Shown: one piece after another, positions 51,892-64,000 of the stretch
Layout: every line of letters begins with the position of its first letter
Numbering within the stretch: position 1 is the first letter of the stretch
Source of the DNA: Pseudothermotoga elfii DSM 9442 = NBRC 107921
GTDB lineage: Bacteria > Thermotogota > Thermotogae > Thermotogales > DSM-5069
Assembly (NCBI RefSeq): GCF_000504085.1
Contig: NC_022792.1
Location: forward strand, 1,516,001-1,580,000
Length of the DNA stretch: 64,000 nucleotides
Reading direction: 5' to 3'
Made by a program: the position numbers and the translations under genes
The notes under the pieces: generated by a model
What the model saw: the letters and a program-made list of their open reading frames with translations, nothing else
Databases searched by the model: none
Told to the model about the DNA's origin: nothing

Positions 51892-53688
51892 CTAATCAAC
51901 CGTCACTGTTTTGGAAAGATTTCTTGGTAGATCTGGATTTTTTCCTTCTCTGATAGCAAAATGGTAAGCAAAAAGCTGAAGTGGGATTGTAGCCAGAAAA
52001 GGAGACAAATACCATGGACAATCTGGATAATGAACCACTTTCATAACATTTGATGCAATTTCTTCAGAATCGTCAGAAATAGCTATTGCATACCCGTTTC
52101 TGCATGTTACTTCGTTTATGTGAGACACAATCATGTTGGTTTGAGAGCTGTGAGTAACAAAAAAGACAGGATAATTTTCCTCAACCATCGACAGTGGACC
52201 ATGCTTGAATTCTGAAGAATACATTCCCTCAAAGTGCTTGTAAACAACTTCCTTTATCTTCAAAGCCCCTTCGAGCGCTACAGGGTGCATAACACCGTAA
52301 CCAAGCACATATGAATCAGAAAAATTTGTCTGTGATTCTACCAATTCTTTTATTTGAGGCTCTGCTTGATGGAGTGTTTTCTCGAGCAATTCTGGCAGAT
52401 TCTTAATCTGTTTTATATAATTATCGTCAAAACTCATCTTTGCCGCGAGATAATAAAGCACAGTGAGTTCGTTAATAAAAGTCTTCGTTGCCGGCACTGA
52501 TATCTCTAATTCACAACAAAGAGGCACATTTAAAAGACTTCTCATCATTACCGTGGATCCCGTAACATTTACAATCGATAGCACAGTGCATTTGCCATCG
52601 AGAGAGTTGAGAACGTTTATCACATCCTTGGTTTCTCCACTTTGAGAAACCAAAATAAGCACATCTTCTTCTCCAACCGCATTTGCATAATTTTCAACAA
52701 ACCTTCCTGCCTCACATGATACAGAAACTTTTTTTGCGAACTTGTTGAAAAAATAACTACCGGCAAGTGATGCGTGATAAGAACTGCCCGATCCTACTAT
52801 AAAGATATTTCTTGCACGATTCAGAATATTAATGTATCTTGTAAGATCCATATCAAACCTCAAAAACTCCAGCAAAGTTGAGGTTGTTCTGGGCTGTTCA
52901 TAGATCTCTTTAAGCATGTAATAATCAAAACCAAGCTTGGAAGCGGCCTCAGAAGAAATGTCCATAATTTGAGGTTCTCTCTGTATTTCATCGCCAGTTT
53001 TGATATCTCTGATTCTGTAAGAACAATGATCAAACTCGACGTACTCTCCATCTCTTAAAGGAACTATTCTACGAGTCAATGGAATAATTGATGGTAGATC
53101 AGATGAGGCGCAGACAAATCCTTTTCCGACTCCGAGATAAAGAGAAGATCCACGTTTAATGCAATACATTTTTCTATCATCAACACAGGTTATAACACAC
53201 GCAAAGTCACCTTTCAGTATTTCGCCAGCTTTCTGAATAGCGAGATCCATATTATGATGGATATCATAAAATTTTTCTATGGCGTGAACTACTATCTCAC
53301 CATCATTTTCACTCCTCAGTGTATGACCTTCTTCAGTAAAAAGCTTTCTCAACTGAACTGTATTGATTATGTTCCCATTATGAGCACCTATCATATTTTT
53401 GTCACAATCATAGTGAGGCTGGGCATTTTTTTGCGATGGTGTCCCAAAGGTGGCCCATCTGAGCTGAACAATACCTTTGAACCCCTTCATCTGTTCAAAG
53501 TTCAATTTCTGGTTGACCTCATCGACTATACCTACATCTTTTCTCAGATCAGAACTTCCACTTTCACTCACAACCCCAATACCTACAGAATCATAACCCC
53601 TGTAAACCAATCTTTTAGCAGCTGCTGTCAGGATCTTCCCGAGATCTTCGCGCTCTTCTTCGAAGATTATTCCAAAGACTCCGCACAC
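51892..53688 (-). CDS. glmS: Glucosamine-6-phosphate synthase (glutamine:fructose-6-P aminotransferase)
   Basis: 598-aa enzyme making glucosamine-6-P for peptidoglycan. GTG 53688 is chosen because the next codon is the nucleophile Cys (MCGVFGII) and GGAGG lies six bases before; a longer frame upstream is not supported. The N-terminal glutaminase domain has RLVYRGYDSVGI and HNGNIINT; two SIS domains carry GSGSSYHASLAG and YKHFEGMYSSEFKHGPLS. The C-terminus NPDLPRNLSKTVTVD is diagnostic. No glmS ribozyme is seen in the short leader. Confidence 0.95.
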   Translation of the reverse strand: MCGVFGIIFEEEREDLGKILTAAAKRLVYRGYDSVGIGVVSESGSSDLRKDVGIVDEVNQKLNFEQMKGFKGIVQLRWATFGTPSQKNAQPHYDCDKNMIGAHNGNIINTVQLRKLFTEEGHTLRSENDGEIVVHAIEKFYDIHHNMDLAIQKAGEILKGDFACVITCVDDRKMYCIKRGSSLYLGVGKGFVCASSDLPSIIPLTRRIVPLRDGEYVEFDHCSYRIRDIKTGDEIQREPQIMDISSEAASKLGFDYYMLKEIYEQPRTTSTLLEFLRFDMDLTRYINILNRARNIFIVGSGSSYHASLAGSYFFNKFAKKVSVSCEAGRFVENYANAVGEEDVLILVSQSGETKDVINVLNSLDGKCTVLSIVNVTGSTVMMRSLLNVPLCCELEISVPATKTFINELTVLYYLAAKMSFDDNYIKQIKNLPELLEKTLHQAEPQIKELVESQTNFSDSYVLGYGVMHPVALEGALKIKEVVYKHFEGMYSSEFKHGPLSMVEENYPVFFVTHSSQTNMIVSHINEVTCRNGYAIAISDDSEEIASNVMKVVHYPDCPWYLSPFLATIPLQLFAYHFAIREGKNPDLPRNLSKTVTVD

Positions 53689-53724
53689 ACTATCTCCCTC
53701 CAGATTCAAGAGTCTCTTACAGAT

Positions 53725-53753
53725 ATAGTATACTGTTTCTTGTGCCATAACAA
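53725..53753 (-). promoter_or_regulatory. Promoter of glmS
   Basis: On the minus strand TTGTTA (53753-53748) and TACTAT (53730-53725) are 17 bases apart, with transcription starting about 30 bases before the glmS GTG. Confidence 0.55.
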
Positions 53754-53785
53754 GCAGTCTCAAACGGGAGGATCAACAAACATAT

Positions 53786-55027
53786 ATGAGTGAGAAAAGC
53801 GTTGCGTTTGGCAGATTTCTGAAAAAATTTCTCGATAAACCGTTGCTGTTCAAAAGATTTTTGAATCTTGGCTTGTCAGCAGAATTAGCAAGAAGAAAAA
53901 TGGCTGCCATTACCAGAAATGACTTCACCAGCTGGATGGATTTTGCGGCATTGAAAGCTGTACAAAAAGCTGTGTGCGGTGATACAGCATGGGTCAATCT
54001 ATTTTTCCCTGTTGAAATTATACACGCATTCAGACTCAATTGTGTTTCTGCCGAAGGATTATCTGGAATGTTTGCTTCTATGCTCCTTGAGGACACAGCT
54101 ATAACAAAAGCCGAATCTTTGGGAATTTCTCGAAATCTTTGCACCTTTCACAGGACAGGAATCGGCATAAGTTACTCGGGTTTTTTTCCAGGTCCTTCCT
54201 TTGTAGCAACAACGAATATTCTCTGTGATGGAAATATCCCTGTATTCACCACATATTCGAAACTGTATTCAGTACCTCTTTATGTCATAGATGTTCCAAG
54301 AAACAATCACTTGGGCAGCGAAGAATATCTGGTCAGGCAAATGGAAGATCTTATTTTCAACATAGAAAACCATCTTGGAAGGAAATTTGTCTATTCAGAA
54401 CTTGTAAAACAACTTGAAATAGAAAAAGAGGCCCTCGATATAATGAGAGAAGCCTACCATAAACTTTGCATTAGACCGCTACCAATGGAATTGTACCAGC
54501 ATGTCAACGCACTGTATTCTTTTCATATCGCCCCAAAGCATTATATTTTAAAGGCTGCAAAATCACTTATCAAATACGACAAACCACCAGAAAACAATAA
54601 AAAAATTCTCTGGTTACACCTCGCACCATATTACGATAACGAACTCTACAAAATCTTTTGCAGAACTTCTAAAACAATTGTTGCAACGAGTGAGTTCGAA
54701 TGGGATTGGCTGTACTGGCAGGTAGATCCGGTGCATCCTTTTCAATCTCTTGCGAAGAAACTCATGCTAAACCCGGAAATTGGTCCCGTTGAAAAAAGAA
54801 TAGATTTTGTTAGCAAATTGGCGCTGGATTTCAAGGTTGATGGCGTTATACATTTTAATCACTGGGGTTGCAAGCAGTCGTGGGGCAGCATTCATTTGAT
54901 AAAGGAAAATTTTGAAAAACTTGGAATACCGTTTCTTGCAATAGATGGAGATTGCGTGGATCATTCAAATCAGTCATCTGCTCAGTTCAAAACACGAATT
55001 GAAGCCTTTTTGGAGATGATAGAGTGA
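53786..55027 (+). CDS. 2-hydroxyacyl-CoA dehydratase (HgdB/BadD-like) D-component subunit
   Basis: 413-aa protein of the 2-hydroxyglutaryl-CoA-dehydratase D-component family. Likely Fe-S cysteines are in SRNLCTFHR, TNILCDGN and NHWGCKQS. PVEIIHAFRLNCVSAEG near the start and RIEAFLEM at the end are typical. ATG 53786 is the only start nearby, yet the GGGAGG site is 14 bases away. The protein probably holds one [4Fe-4S] or double-cubane cluster. Family roles include dehydrating 2-hydroxyacyl-CoA, reducing benzoyl-CoA, or small-molecule reduction by DCCP. Which one is not determined. It overlaps its activator-fusion partner by four bases. Confidence 0.85.
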   Translation: MSEKSVAFGRFLKKFLDKPLLFKRFLNLGLSAELARRKMAAITRNDFTSWMDFAALKAVQKAVCGDTAWVNLFFPVEIIHAFRLNCVSAEGLSGMFASMLLEDTAITKAESLGISRNLCTFHRTGIGISYSGFFPGPSFVATTNILCDGNIPVFTTYSKLYSVPLYVIDVPRNNHLGSEEYLVRQMEDLIFNIENHLGRKFVYSELVKQLEIEKEALDIMREAYHKLCIRPLPMELYQHVNALYSFHIAPKHYILKAAKSLIKYDKPPENNKKILWLHLAPYYDNELYKIFCRTSKTIVATSEFEWDWLYWQVDPVHPFQSLAKKLMLNPEIGPVEKRIDFVSKLALDFKVDGVIHFNHWGCKQSWGSIHLIKENFEKLGIPFLAIDGDCVDHSNQSSAQFKTRIEAFLEMIE

Positions 55028-56712
55028 TTGTATACAATTGTCCTCTTGTCCCGTTTGAGTTTTTTAAAGCCCTTGATATACCTGCAAAACGTATTCAAAA
55101 CTCTGGTTGTGAATTTGAATTGTTTCATTCGAATATATGCTCATTCTGTAAAAACTCATTTCCCTCGGTGAATCCTGAAGAAATTGTCATCTGGGTGGAT
55201 TCGTGTGACTCAATGAGAAGAAGCGAAGATTTTTTAAAGAGAGCTTGTACTGTTTTCGACCTTCACATACCTGTTACCGTAAATGAAAAAAATGTCGACA
55301 AGCTGGCTCACGATTTGAGAAATCTCTGGAACAACCTCAAGCAGAGATACGGAGAAGCCGATGATGAAAAACTCATCATTGAACACAAGAATTTTCAAAA
55401 ACAAAGTGAAAAGCTTTTGAAACTGCTTAACAACGATTTAAGATCTTCGGCGGAGCTTTATGAACAGATGACCTGCCAAAAGTGGATTGGTTCTGTTGAG
55501 AAAAAAGGTATACCAATATTGATCCTCGGAGCCTATGTTGAAAAAGACCTGATAAAGGTAATCGAAGACAGCGGGGGATATGCCTTAAATGGAACCTGTT
55601 CAGGACCGTTCGCGATAATTGGTGAGAATCTTAACAGCAACGATGTTTTCAAAAACATGGCCTTCAGAATTTTGAAAAAAAGTATCGTATGTATGCGATC
55701 TGCACATAACAGAGATATAGAAAAAATAATAAATTTCTACAGGCCATCCGGTATAATCTTACATACAATAAAATTTTGTGACTTCTACGGTTTCGACGAA
55801 AAAATTCTGAGAAACCTTAAAATTCCATTTACTGTTGTTGAAAATGATCTCAGCGGCACCAGCGCTCAATTGAAAACACGAATGGAGGCTTTGATAGAAT
55901 TAGTGAAAAATTCAGAAAAGCAACCGGAAAGAAAATGCTACTACTTTGTCGGAATTGACAGTGGTTCAACAACAACGAAAATAGCTGTAATTAACAAAGA
56001 CATGAAGATTGTTTATCAAGACATAATTAAAACAGGCGCTTATCCTAACTTAGCATCAAAAGCCATTTTTGAGAAAATGCTTGCAAAATTGAATATCAAA
56101 AAAGAAGCTGTCTATGTCGTATCAACAGGATACGGTAGGTCTTCCGTGGATTTTGCAGATGAGCAAATAACTGAAATAACCTGTCATGCAAAAGGAGTAT
56201 ATCAATTTCTGCCACAAACACGCACAGTAATCGATATAGGTGGTCAGGATAGCAAGGTGATAAGAATTGAAAACGGTAAGGTAATCGACTTTGTTATGAA
56301 TGACAAATGCGCCGCTGGTACAGGAAGATTCCTCGAGGTGATGGCGAACGTTCTCGACGTCCCGTTGGATGAAATAGGTGAACTTTCCCTGAGATATTCA
56401 ACAGAATTAAGCATAAGCAGCGTCTGCACAGTTTTTGCCGAATCCGAAGTGATCTCGCTGAGATCACACGGTCATTCGCGAGAGGATATACTGCACGCAG
56501 TTCACCTGGCAATTGCACGGAGGATAGGCACAATGTGCCAGCGAGTCAATGCAGATGTCCCGACTGTTTTAACAGGTGGAGTAGCTCAAAACAGAGGTGT
56601 AAAATTTGCTCTCGAAAAACACATGAACACTCGTATCGATATTCCAAAAAACCCTGTGCTGATGGGTGCTATCGGCGCTGCGCTTATAGGTGCTGAAAAA
56701 CATCTTCAATGA
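55024..56712 (+). CDS. Fusion of a dehydratase-like D-component and a BadF/HgdC ATPase activator
   Basis: 562-aa fusion. Residues 1-300 resemble the smaller D-component (NICSFCKNSFP, VDSCDSMRR, HTIKFCDFYGF cysteines). Residues 306-562 form an ASKHA ATPase activator: FVGIDSGSTTTKIAVI, VIDIGGQDSKVI, MNDKCAAGTGRFLE and SSVCTVFAESEV (two cluster cysteines), LTGGVAQN. In studied systems the homodimeric activator injects an electron at ATP cost. Fusing it to a subunit is unusual. The operon has only this and the partner gene, with no CoA-transferase, so substrate identity is unknown. Confidence 0.87.
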   Translation: MIVYNCPLVPFEFFKALDIPAKRIQNSGCEFELFHSNICSFCKNSFPSVNPEEIVIWVDSCDSMRRSEDFLKRACTVFDLHIPVTVNEKNVDKLAHDLRNLWNNLKQRYGEADDEKLIIEHKNFQKQSEKLLKLLNNDLRSSAELYEQMTCQKWIGSVEKKGIPILILGAYVEKDLIKVIEDSGGYALNGTCSGPFAIIGENLNSNDVFKNMAFRILKKSIVCMRSAHNRDIEKIINFYRPSGIILHTIKFCDFYGFDEKILRNLKIPFTVVENDLSGTSAQLKTRMEALIELVKNSEKQPERKCYYFVGIDSGSTTTKIAVINKDMKIVYQDIIKTGAYPNLASKAIFEKMLAKLNIKKEAVYVVSTGYGRSSVDFADEQITEITCHAKGVYQFLPQTRTVIDIGGQDSKVIRIENGKVIDFVMNDKCAAGTGRFLEVMANVLDVPLDEIGELSLRYSTELSISSVCTVFAESEVISLRSHGHSREDILHAVHLAIARRIGTMCQRVNADVPTVLTGGVAQNRGVKFALEKHMNTRIDIPKNPVLMGAIGAALIGAEKHLQ

Positions 56713-60780: not shown

Positions 60781-62013
60781 TCAAAACTGATAGAATTCAG
60801 CAAATTCTCCAGCATTTATTCCCTCAACTCCAAGAGGAATCCTTATCACTCCATCTGCATTTGCTATATTTGAAACATGAGCACTTTCACTGAAAAGTGG
60901 CTCGGCGAAAATTTTTCCATTTTTGAAAACTGTTTTTACTCTGACAAAATGTTCTCTTCCTTGAATTGAAGGAACATTTTTTGCCAATATAACAAACCCA
61001 GAAGGTGCAGGAGTAAAATCATTTGCCCCCGCCAATTTTCTCAACACAGGAAGCAAGAAAAATCGTGAGCTTACGAAAAATGAAACAGGGTTACCTGGTA
61101 ATCCAAGCACAGGCTTTTCACCAATCATTGCGAAGATGGTTGGCTTACCTGGTTGAACAAGTGCGCCATGGTATATAATTCCCGGCTTGCCCAACCTTTC
61201 AATTGCCCGTGCAGTGTAATCTCGAGGGCCTATCGAACTCCCACCAGCTATTACGATCAAATCGTAATCATTCAGGAACTTTTTCAGCGATTCATACAAA
61301 GATTCCTCATCATCTTTCACATGAGAAACTCTCTCTGCAACAAAACCGTGTTTTTCGATCCAAGCTTTTAGAGTATAGGTGTTACTATCCCTCACCTGAG
61401 CTGTATCTGGCTTTTGCCATGGTTCTACTATTTCGTCTCCCGTTGAGATAATAGCTACCTTTACTTTCCTGAAAACTTCAATCTGCATTAATCCGAGTTG
61501 CAACAAAAGTTGTACATGTCCAGATTTTAAAAGCGTCCCTTTCTCCAAAATTCTATCGCTCCGCTTGATATCTTCGTCAAATTTCATAACATTTTCTCCA
61601 GCAGAAACTGGTTTCATGATCTCTACAAATTCTCCGAATCCTTGAGTATGCTCAACCATTACAACTGCATCTGCCCCTTCAGGTATCGCTCCACCAGTTG
61701 GAACCCAGGCAGCCTCGCCTGGTATCAGTTTTTTATCTGGTTTCTTTCCAATATGAACTTCAAAAGCAATCTTTAGCAGCGCTGGCATACTACTGGAAGC
61801 ACCTCGCGTATCAAGCGCCCTAAGTGCATATCCATCTACCAGAGACTTGTCGAAGCCAGGTAGATTTTCTAAAGAGAAAATATCTTTCGCGCAGACGCGC
61901 TCCAAACTTTCGAGCGTGTCAAGTGTCTCTATTTCGGTCACTGATCCCACTTTAGAAACATAACTACTGTAAATATCTTCCAGAGTCGCAAATCTTAGAG
62001 ATTCAACCTTCAT
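60781..62013 (-). CDS. moeA: Molybdopterin molybdenumtransferase MoeA
   Basis: 410-aa enzyme inserting molybdate or tungstate into adenylated molybdopterin. Motifs are NLPGFDKSLVDGYALRA, TGGAIPEGADAVVMVE, ISTGDEIVEP, VIAGGSSIGPRDYTARAIERLG and LGLPGNPVSFFVSSRFFLLP. Complete, with all four domains. It overlaps mogA by 11 bases, showing translational coupling. This is one of two MoeA-type proteins here, which is common where Mo and W are both used. The organism is therefore able to make the cofactor thought to bind the riboswitch at 10766. Confidence 0.95.
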   Translation of the reverse strand: MKVESLRFATLEDIYSSYVSKVGSVTEIETLDTLESLERVCAKDIFSLENLPGFDKSLVDGYALRALDTRGASSSMPALLKIAFEVHIGKKPDKKLIPGEAAWVPTGGAIPEGADAVVMVEHTQGFGEFVEIMKPVSAGENVMKFDEDIKRSDRILEKGTLLKSGHVQLLLQLGLMQIEVFRKVKVAIISTGDEIVEPWQKPDTAQVRDSNTYTLKAWIEKHGFVAERVSHVKDDEESLYESLKKFLNDYDLIVIAGGSSIGPRDYTARAIERLGKPGIIYHGALVQPGKPTIFAMIGEKPVLGLPGNPVSFFVSSRFFLLPVLRKLAGANDFTPAPSGFVILAKNVPSIQGREHFVRVKTVFKNGKIFAEPLFSESAHVSNIANADGVIRIPLGVEGINAGEFAEFYQF

Positions 62014-62521
62014 TTTTTTTCACCAGTTTTTCCCTTTCATGAGCACAATCAGCAGTCGAACCTTTTATTTTCTCAATCGCGTGAGGTATTACAGGAAGAA
62101 TTATCGATAGATTCTCTTCAACTGCCCGGGGACTACCGGGTAAATTTATTATCAATGTTTTGCCACGAATACCAGCTATTGCTCTTGAAAGCATCCCAAA
62201 AGGTGTGTGTACCATAGATTTACTTATCATAGCTATTTCTATTCCATAAATCCTTTTTTCTACAACGGAAATTGTTGCTTCTGGTGTTACATCTCTTGGA
62301 GAGAGGCCTGTCCCACCAGTTGTTAGAATAAGGTCAAAGCCAGATTTGCAAAGGTTCAACAGCTCATTTTTAATGTCATCCAGTTCATCAGGTACTATTT
62401 TGTAATACATGATGTTTGCATCTATCGTTTTCAGCATTTGCTGGATAATTTTTCCACTTTCATCAATTCTCTCACCCTTGGAAGCCTTATCACTGATTGT
62501 TATTACCGCTGATTTGATCAC
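62003..62521 (-). CDS. Molybdopterin adenylyltransferase MogA/MoaB-like
   Basis: 172-aa protein of the MoCF-biosynthesis family. It has SAVITISDKASKGERIDESG at the start, LILTTGGTGLSPRDVTPEAT and NLPGSPRAVEENL. It adenylates molybdopterin before metal insertion. GTG 62521 is preferred because AGAGGTG is six bases upstream; GTG 62530 is another option. It overlaps the end of the upstream MoeA-fusion by about 32 bases. MogA and MoaB cannot be told apart with certainty by reading. Confidence 0.92.
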   Translation of the reverse strand: MIKSAVITISDKASKGERIDESGKIIQQMLKTIDANIMYYKIVPDELDDIKNELLNLCKSGFDLILTTGGTGLSPRDVTPEATISVVEKRIYGIEIAMISKSMVHTPFGMLSRAIAGIRGKTLIINLPGSPRAVEENLSIILPVIPHAIEKIKGSTADCAHEREKLVKKNEG

Positions 62522-64000
62522 AATTTTCACCTCTGATTATTTTCCCCACACTTGAAAGATCATACCCCTGATAGATCAAATCACTGTTGCAAAAATTTTT
62601 TGAAAGTATCAAATCCATTATTATTTGAAATCTATCATCATTGAAAAATTCTTCCAGAACCAGCAAATCATAATCTTCCCAGATCAGTGGGATAAAATCA
62701 AGATCCATTATTTTTGCGGCAAAAGCAATGCCAAGTCCCACATCAGCCATGCCTTTTTTAATCTTCAGAGCAAGATTTATGTGCGTAAACTCTTCGTCTT
62801 CATAGCCATTTATCTGTGATGGATCAATTCCAAGCTTTGAGAGATGGTAATCCAGAAGAATTCTCGTTCCCGCAGCTCTCTGCCTGTTGACGAACCTGAT
62901 ATCTTTTCTTGTCAGATCAAACAAATTTTCAATTTTCTTTGGATTACCTTTCTGAACTATCAAACCCTGATTTCGCTTGACAAACTTCATCAGGATGTAT
63001 TGGGGAAGGTATCTCTTTAAATATGGTACATTGTACTCGCCAGAAACTGGGTCAAACAAATGTATTCCTCCTATATGGGCACAGTTTTTTGCTACAGCAG
63101 CAACTGCTCCCATACTTCCAGCATTCACGATTGACATATTCAATGAGAAATCTTTTTGTTTCAAAAGATCCGCTATTATGGAAATAAGCGGATCATGGCT
63201 TCCAACAAACAGTATATTTTTATCTATCTCTTCAAGCGACCTGTTCAACCCAACCGTGACCTTATCTCCCTCGTCAAGTAGCTCAACTCCTTTTTGAACC
63301 ACAACAGTGCCGCTCATCTTTGATAAAGCGTCCATACTTGCCGCTCCACGTTTCAACGGAACAAAAACGTATCGATCTTTGATTTTTGCCAGACTTACCC
63401 TTATAAATTCATCTTCTGATATAGAAGAAACCACTCTTCTGAGAGAAGACGCCTCCAGAAACAGGTTTTTCTCCGTTATAATTCTGTATTTCTCATTTAT
63501 CAGGGGCTTAACAATATTCTCGAGGATCACATAGCATGAGCCCGGATATCCAGGAAGACATATGACTGGTTTGTTTCTGATTATTCCAAGGATGGTAGGC
63601 TTGCCAGGTCTCACATTTAACCCGTGCACAACAACTTTTCCAAGCTGCTCTAAAGCATGGTAAGAATAATCAAAAGAGCCGGCCGAAGAACCAGCATTTA
63701 AAAAAATCAAGTCGTATGATTCTACCGCTTTTAATATAGTTTCAGATATGAGATCTAACGAATCCGGAACGACATCATTTACATTGACATCCACATCAAG
63801 TTCCTCAAGATAAGCCTTTATCATAACAGAATTTGTTTCCGGGATCGCTCCAACATCTATTTCATCTTCTGGCTGAACGACTTCCCCACCTGTTGGTATG
63901 ACAATTGCTTTCATTTTTTTAAGCACTTTCACCTCAAAAACCCCGGCTGCCAGAAGAAGTGCTACATCATAAGGTCTGAGTCTATGATATCGAGTAAAAA
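62490..64000 (-). CDS. MoeA fused to a periplasmic-binding-like domain, 5' end outside the window
   Basis: The frame stays open to the right edge and reads FTRYHRLRPYDVALLLAAGVFEV upstream of GTG 63932, the standard MoeA region before ISTGDE. So the gene starts outside. The MoeA part has IPTGGEVVQPEDEI, NAGSSAGSFDYSYHALEQLG and CLPGYPGSCYVILENI. From about window position 63290 on, it becomes a PBP-like domain (SHDPLISIIADLL, NAGSMGAVAAVAK, RQRAAGTRILLDYHL), known as the MoeA-PBP fusion of many anaerobes and archaea. The fused domain may sense tungstate/molybdate or a cofactor form. Confidence 0.9.
   Translation of the reverse strand, partial: FTRYHRLRPYDVALLLAAGVFEVKVLKKMKAIVIPTGGEVVQPEDEIDVGAIPETNSVMIKAYLEELDVDVNVNDVVPDSLDLISETILKAVESYDLIFLNAGSSAGSFDYSYHALEQLGKVVVHGLNVRPGKPTILGIIRNKPVICLPGYPGSCYVILENIVKPLINEKYRIITEKNLFLEASSLRRVVSSISEDEFIRVSLAKIKDRYVFVPLKRGAASMDALSKMSGTVVVQKGVELLDEGDKVTVGLNRSLEEIDKNILFVGSHDPLISIIADLLKQKDFSLNMSIVNAGSMGAVAAVAKNCAHIGGIHLFDPVSGEYNVPYLKRYLPQYILMKFVKRNQGLIVQKGNPKKIENLFDLTRKDIRFVNRQRAAGTRILLDYHLSKLGIDPSQINGYEDEEFTHINLALKIKKGMADVGLGIAFAAKIMDLDFIPLIWEDYDLLVLEEFFNDDRFQIIMDLILSKNFCNSDLIYQGYDLSSVGKIIRGENCDQISGNNNQ

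Follow-up and report, generated by a model that had tools for sequence, protein, structure and literature searches.

The window, the whole stretch of 64,000 nucleotides that we analysed, contains a pair of overlapping genes, P1 and P2, with the following features.

53786..55027, + strand: P1, HGD-D subunit of the alpha (catalytic) type, ORF of 413 aa
54053..54055, + strand: P1 Glu90, predicted catalytic acid-base, equivalent to HadB Glu55 and BzdO Glu65; invariant in 45 sequences
54140..54142, + strand: P1 Cys119, predicted [4Fe-4S] ligand, equivalent to HadB C84 and BzdO C95; invariant in 45 sequences
54224..54226, + strand: P1 Cys147, predicted [4Fe-4S] ligand, equivalent to HadB C117 and BzdO C128; invariant in 45 sequences
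54869..54871, + strand: P1 Cys362, predicted [4Fe-4S] ligand, equivalent to the cysteine of the C-terminal RSC of HadB and to BzdO C380; invariant in 45 sequences
55024..55027, + strand: GTGA in the sequence, 4-bp overlap of the P1 stop and the P2 start
55024..56712, + strand: P2, beta HGD-D domain fused to an activase, 562 aa, GTG start
55024..55914, + strand: N-terminal domain of P2 (P2N), aa 1-297, beta-type HGD-D with a predicted double-cubane [8Fe-9S] site
Codons starting at 55039, 55138 and 55204, + strand: P2N Cys6, Cys39 and Cys61, predicted [8Fe-9S] ligands
Codons starting at 55597, 55690 and 55777, + strand: P2N Cys192, Cys223 and Cys252, predicted [8Fe-9S] ligands
55939..56703, + strand: C-terminal domain of P2, aa 306-560, ASKHA activase of the BadF/HgdC type
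Codon at 56308, + strand: P2 activase cluster Cys429 (NDKC429AAGTG), invariant in 44 sequences
Codon at 56425, + strand: P2 activase cluster Cys468 (SSVC468TVF), invariant in 44 sequences

Pfam HGD-D matched residues 72-412 of P1, to the end of the protein (8.7e-70), and residues 32-292 of P2 (1.1e-26), where it is followed by BcrAD_BadFG over residues 309-556 (1.5e-63); the activase domain of P2 also matched TIGR00241 (2.8e-85) and, further, methanogenesis marker 15. The initial annotation, which had described P2 as an HGD-D domain joined to a BadF/HgdC activator with both cluster cysteines, and its partner gene as overlapping it, is confirmed on all these points by the matches, by Cys429 and Cys468 and by the GTGA overlap, which makes translational coupling of P1 and P2 likely. 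The ASKHA fold with its two cluster cysteines identifies the C-terminal domain as an HgdC-type activator and, with the HGD-D fold in both P1 and P2, places the pair in the 2-hydroxyacyl-CoA dehydratase/class I benzoyl-CoA reductase superfamily.

P1 and P2 are the only HGD-D matches in the 2.17-Mb single-contig genome, and no separate free activase was found there with TIGR00241. The sole other match to this model is a 1372-aa CoA enzyme activase/DUF2229 protein (G000:C1:563817-567935; L203:1818-5936) that, like P2, has activase domains built into a single chain but, unlike P2, has two activase stretches plus DUF2229 and no Pfam HGD-D match, and belongs to a different family. A promoter and terminator scan around P1-P2 gave results near chance. 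The glmS ORF (51892-53763, - strand) is listed from an upstream TTG; translation probably begins instead at the GTG that precedes CGVFG, near 53685, which would leave ca. 100 bp between the divergent glmS and P1.

Searching 103 Thermotogota genomes for the fused gene, we found it in at least 23 others, full length at 35-58% identity in the family of the host itself (f1) and in f9, and, in G006 and G028, as partial-coverage matches within ORFs of equal length; the G006 copy of P2 proved full length when read. A P1 homologue always precedes the fused gene, in 20 out of 20 Thermotogota regions fetched. Scanning 84,980 species genomes with a P1 profile retrieved 80 loci, mostly from Clostridia (Clostridium, Roseburia, Blautia, Coprococcus and Eubacterium), together with a minority from a few Erysipelotrichaceae and one Coriobacteriaceae bin. 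The downstream gene carries both domains at 74 of these loci, while at the remaining six the contig ends before it; wherever the gene is complete, then, it is fused (74/74). The linker between the HGD-D and activase domains mostly spans 5-30 residues, although it reaches ca. 100-190 in some relatives, and this variable length suggests that its role is that of a tether. Of 291 evenly sampled genomes from the same class as Clostridium carboxidivorans, ca. seven have a true member (>400 bits), that species counted, and the distribution of the family in that class is sparse yet wide. The fusion is old and fixed, and it marks a distinct lineage that spans two phyla. Our literature search, which did not extend to the two primary DCCP papers, found no account of it.

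At one locus (L176, in genome bin G391) P2 is split into two overlapping ORFs, likely by a frameshift there. In the tree, both P1 and P2N of the Thermotogota genome G006 (L059) branch with the Clostridial copies, and horizontal transfer of this copy is probable.

AlphaFold2 models had a mean pLDDT of 92.9 for P1 and 90.5 for P2 (pTM 0.79). The best fold match of P1 was HadB (3o3m_A, Z 38.0), followed by BzdO (Z 34.8), and that of P2N was BzdN (Z 25.6 over 290 residues), followed by HadC (Z 23.8) and DCCP (Z 23.4); by profile, the best match of P2N among solved chains was DCCP (3e-33). HgdC was the best fold match of the activase domain (1hux_A, Z 35.2), to which the activase 4eht (HadI) aligned at 4e-67. 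A tree of 72 rows, built without BzdO (compared by profile and fold) and without LcdAB, FldBC, HgdAB and BcrBC as named references, splits with support of 100/100, P1 falling with the alpha subunits and P2N on the beta/DCCP side. Each forms a clade of its own (100/99 for P1 and 99/73 for P2N), apart from HadBC, MbdNO, BzdN and DCCP. Likewise, all NCBIfam equivalog scores are far under their cut-offs: 80 bits versus 750 for HadB (NF052455), 38 versus 448.6 for bzdO, 23 versus 453.8 for bzdN and 57-74 versus 350 for DCCP (NF040772), for which a true DCCP in the genome of a relative (G103) scores 521 bits. The equivalog scores and the tree thus speak against membership in the HadBC, BZD/BCR or DCCP families, and the placement with a dehydratase of defined substrate that had been named as a test of the initial annotation was not seen. 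In G103, the gene scoring 521 bits is one of tandem six-Cys HGD-D genes accompanied by a separate activase (L141, L151), which could encode a heterodimeric DCCP.

The HadB and BzdO residue numbers given here were counted off printed alignments and might contain single-residue slips. The position of Glu90 is a Glu in HadB, MbdO and sampled HadB-like relatives, and is absent in the beta subunits and DCCP. We take its HadB counterpart, Glu55, to be the catalytic residue. In BzdO, the catalytic residue is Glu65 (PMC11971306). The active-site His131 of BzdO is replaced in P1 by Asn150, invariant in 45 sequences, and the thioester-binding Tyr97 by Phe in Thermotogota, while Clostridia have Tyr. P1 His122 is also invariant; it does not occur in HadB, BzdO or MbdO, and recurs in the unfused alpha subunit of another locus (L177).

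All six cysteines of P2N align with those of DCCP (7yyl_C) and BzdN (8s02_B), and all are invariant in 44 sequences. Their BzdN counterparts, again counted off the alignment, are C36, C73, C100, C263, C293 and C327, positions consistent with the surroundings described for the BzdN cluster, namely Ser239, Arg267, Arg290, Gln324, His330 and the helices from 74, 103 and 327 (PMC11971306). The full set is lacking in sampled HadC-type subunits, HadC itself being only partly covered. Three of the six are missing in MbdN, a true reductase subunit, so a double cubane is no sure mark of a reductase. Judged by its residues, the P1P2 layout is that of a BzdNO/HadBC-like heterodimer and not that of DCCP. 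The suggestion of a double-cubane-type enzyme thus stands for the six cysteine positions in P2N but not for DCCP as such, because P1 has three cysteines and the Glu.

Genes around the pair in the window are of a housekeeping kind (a LonB-like protease, GlmS, a GHMP kinase, a NUDIX-like protein, thymidine kinase, an integrase-type recombinase, a CitMHS transporter and MoeA), and the neighbours of the pair change between lineages. Neither a HadA/FldA-type CoA-transferase nor a CoA-transferase III was found in the genome. The only AMP-ligase found, a divergent one, adjoins a short-chain dehydrogenase, and a thiolase accompanies the single CoA-transferase I pair; both loci are away from P1-P2. With the AMP-ligase distant and no CoA-transferase III, a thioester substrate is without local support. 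The lack of a nearby ligase had been taken to make a non-CoA substrate equally likely; there is indeed none at this locus, but the argument is weakened by relatives that adjoin AMP-ligases. An AMP-ligase gene lies just upstream of P1 in five Blautia-type loci, four of which have condensation and SCP2 genes too, and an AMP-ligase-carrier protein adjoins the alpha subunit of the nearest unfused relative. A thioester acid, CoA- or carrier-bound, is mildly favoured as the substrate, which may differ between lineages.

Other genes recur near the pair or lie elsewhere in the window. In f9 Thermotogota (L049-L054) a tsaC/Sua5-like gene directly follows the pair, overlapping or nearly so; in three Clostridial loci (L074, L100, L113) such a gene precedes it on the same strand at 63-129 bp, and six more have opposite-strand tsaC-like genes nearby, an association that points to a tRNA-modification link in two phyla. 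In two Clostridium genomes (L084, L088) the gene immediately downstream encodes an FRG-domain protein. In the window, positions 60781-63998 (- strand) hold two genes with MoCF-binding domains, one of them MoeA and the other with a PBP-like domain, so that molybdenum cofactor genes lie near P1-P2.

We interpret P1P2, with a probability of roughly 0.6, as a self-powered, ATP-driven reductase of the superfamily, in which P1 would provide the active site and P2 both the electron store and the activator. HgdC is active as a homodimer whose cluster bridges the two subunits (PMC8473912), so each P2 would be half an activator and two P2 chains would have to pair; by this analogy, the minimum assembly is likely (P1P2)2, with one activator dimer and two catalytic heterodimers. 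The two P2 chains would pair via their activase domains and share one [4Fe-4S] cluster held by four cysteines, two per chain. ATP bound and hydrolysed at the activase would push an electron, which probably comes from ferredoxin, into the double cubane of P2N; from there it would move on to the [4Fe-4S] cluster held by the three cysteines of P1, with the substrate at the open iron of this cluster, beside Glu90.

With activator and electron store covalently joined, ATP-driven electrons could be supplied for each turnover and P1P2 might be continuously powered, which would be more in keeping with a stoichiometric low-potential reductase than with a rarely primed dehydratase. Dehydratases perform at least 1000 turnovers per ATP (PMC8473912), and the BCR/MBR reductases are permanent heterotetramers that use ATP per electron (PMC11971306). 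The six-Cys store would favour a reductase, and so would the permanently attached activator, which BCR/MBR need and dehydratases do not. At somewhat less than even odds, the family could further be a lineage apart, made up of low-potential reductases driven by ATP and spread over Thermotogota and anaerobic Firmicutes, with store and archerase in one polypeptide and one activator dimer per (alpha-betaA)2.

The best surviving alternative, though an unlikely one, is that the pair acts as a 2-hydroxyacyl-CoA dehydratase on a substrate not yet recognised, with an activator fused by chance and with ATP only as a primer, the electron being recycled. It would explain why P1 matches the HadB fold best and keeps the Glu55 equivalent without the reductase His131, as well as the Tyr after the first Cys of P1 that is kept in Clostridia. 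Against it, the six-Cys set of P2N is missing in sampled HadC-type subunits, HadC being partly covered; P1 and P2N form strongly supported clades separate from HadBC, with the HadB score far under its cut-off; and the genome is without a HadA-type CoA-transferase.

We give clearly less credit to a DCCP-like enzyme that would reduce small non-CoA compounds, such as acetylene, azide and hydrazine or some physiological equivalent. The six-Cys site of P2N, with its profile match to DCCP, and the absence of CoA activation genes from the locus would agree with it, but P1 is of the alpha type, with a single-cluster site and the catalytic Glu, as opposed to the homodimeric DCCP, and the P2N clade lies apart from DCCP, with NF040772 scores to match. 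It is highly improbable that the pair serves to mature or activate some other protein and is not itself a metabolic enzyme: it is a free-standing two-gene unit, its housekeeping neighbours differ between lineages and its activase domain matches methanogenesis marker 15, yet the complete catalytic layout is invariant, including the open-site ligands and Glu90. Finally, a sequencing frameshift or a chimera of two genes, the other test set for the initial annotation, has practically no chance of being correct and is ruled out by the fusion in 74 of 74 relatives and in Thermotogota.

A conserved two-gene enzyme of this kind, in which one chain carries both the six-Cys site and the activator, would offer a compact and likely co-expressible system for the study of electron transfer that ATP drives to potentials lower than is normal in biology, and its thermophilic source should provide a robust protein. 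The pair also occurs in the gut genera Roseburia, Blautia, Coprococcus and Eubacterium, where in several genomes it is the sole full-scoring HGD-D pair, which suggests that the substrate may be a gut metabolite as yet unassigned.

Among known systems, the BZD-type class I benzoyl-CoA reductase BzdNO(PQ) resembles P1P2 in its alpha subunit with a three-Cys [4Fe-4S] cluster and Glu, its beta subunit with a six-Cys double cubane (predicted here for P2) and its ATP-driven ASKHA activator. Unlike BzdNO(PQ), with its separate PQ, P1P2 has the activator fused to beta; it also lacks His131 and, in Thermotogota, Tyr97, its beta domain is ca. 80 residues shorter, and it forms a separate clade. No benzoate pathway genes were found at the P1-P2 locus. 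The (R)-2-hydroxyisocaproyl-CoA dehydratase HadBC, with HadI, shares with P1 the same cluster ligands and the Glu55 equivalent, but HadC-type subunits are without the six-Cys site of P2N and HadI is separate, whereas the activator of P2 is fused. The double-cubane [8Fe-9S] cluster was formerly known from DCCP only and is now known from BzdN too (PMC11971306). DCCP/DCCP-R from Carboxydothermus resembles P2 in the six double-cubane cysteines and the ATP-driven activator; DCCP, however, is a homodimer with six cysteines per subunit and a separate reductase, whereas P1P2 has this site in P2 only, three cysteines in P1 and the reductase fused.

Outside the family, the scored relative closest to P1 (198 bits) is the alpha subunit of an unfused three-gene system (L204, in G137), an apparent operon for an activase of 263 aa, a beta subunit of 334 aa and an alpha subunit of 385 aa. 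Unlike in P1P2, its activase is separate and comes first, its beta subunit is without some of the six cysteines, and it adjoins an AMP-ligase with a carrier domain. In all, the superfamily of P1P2 is known, and an activator fused to the beta subunit is, within the literature searched, a new design.
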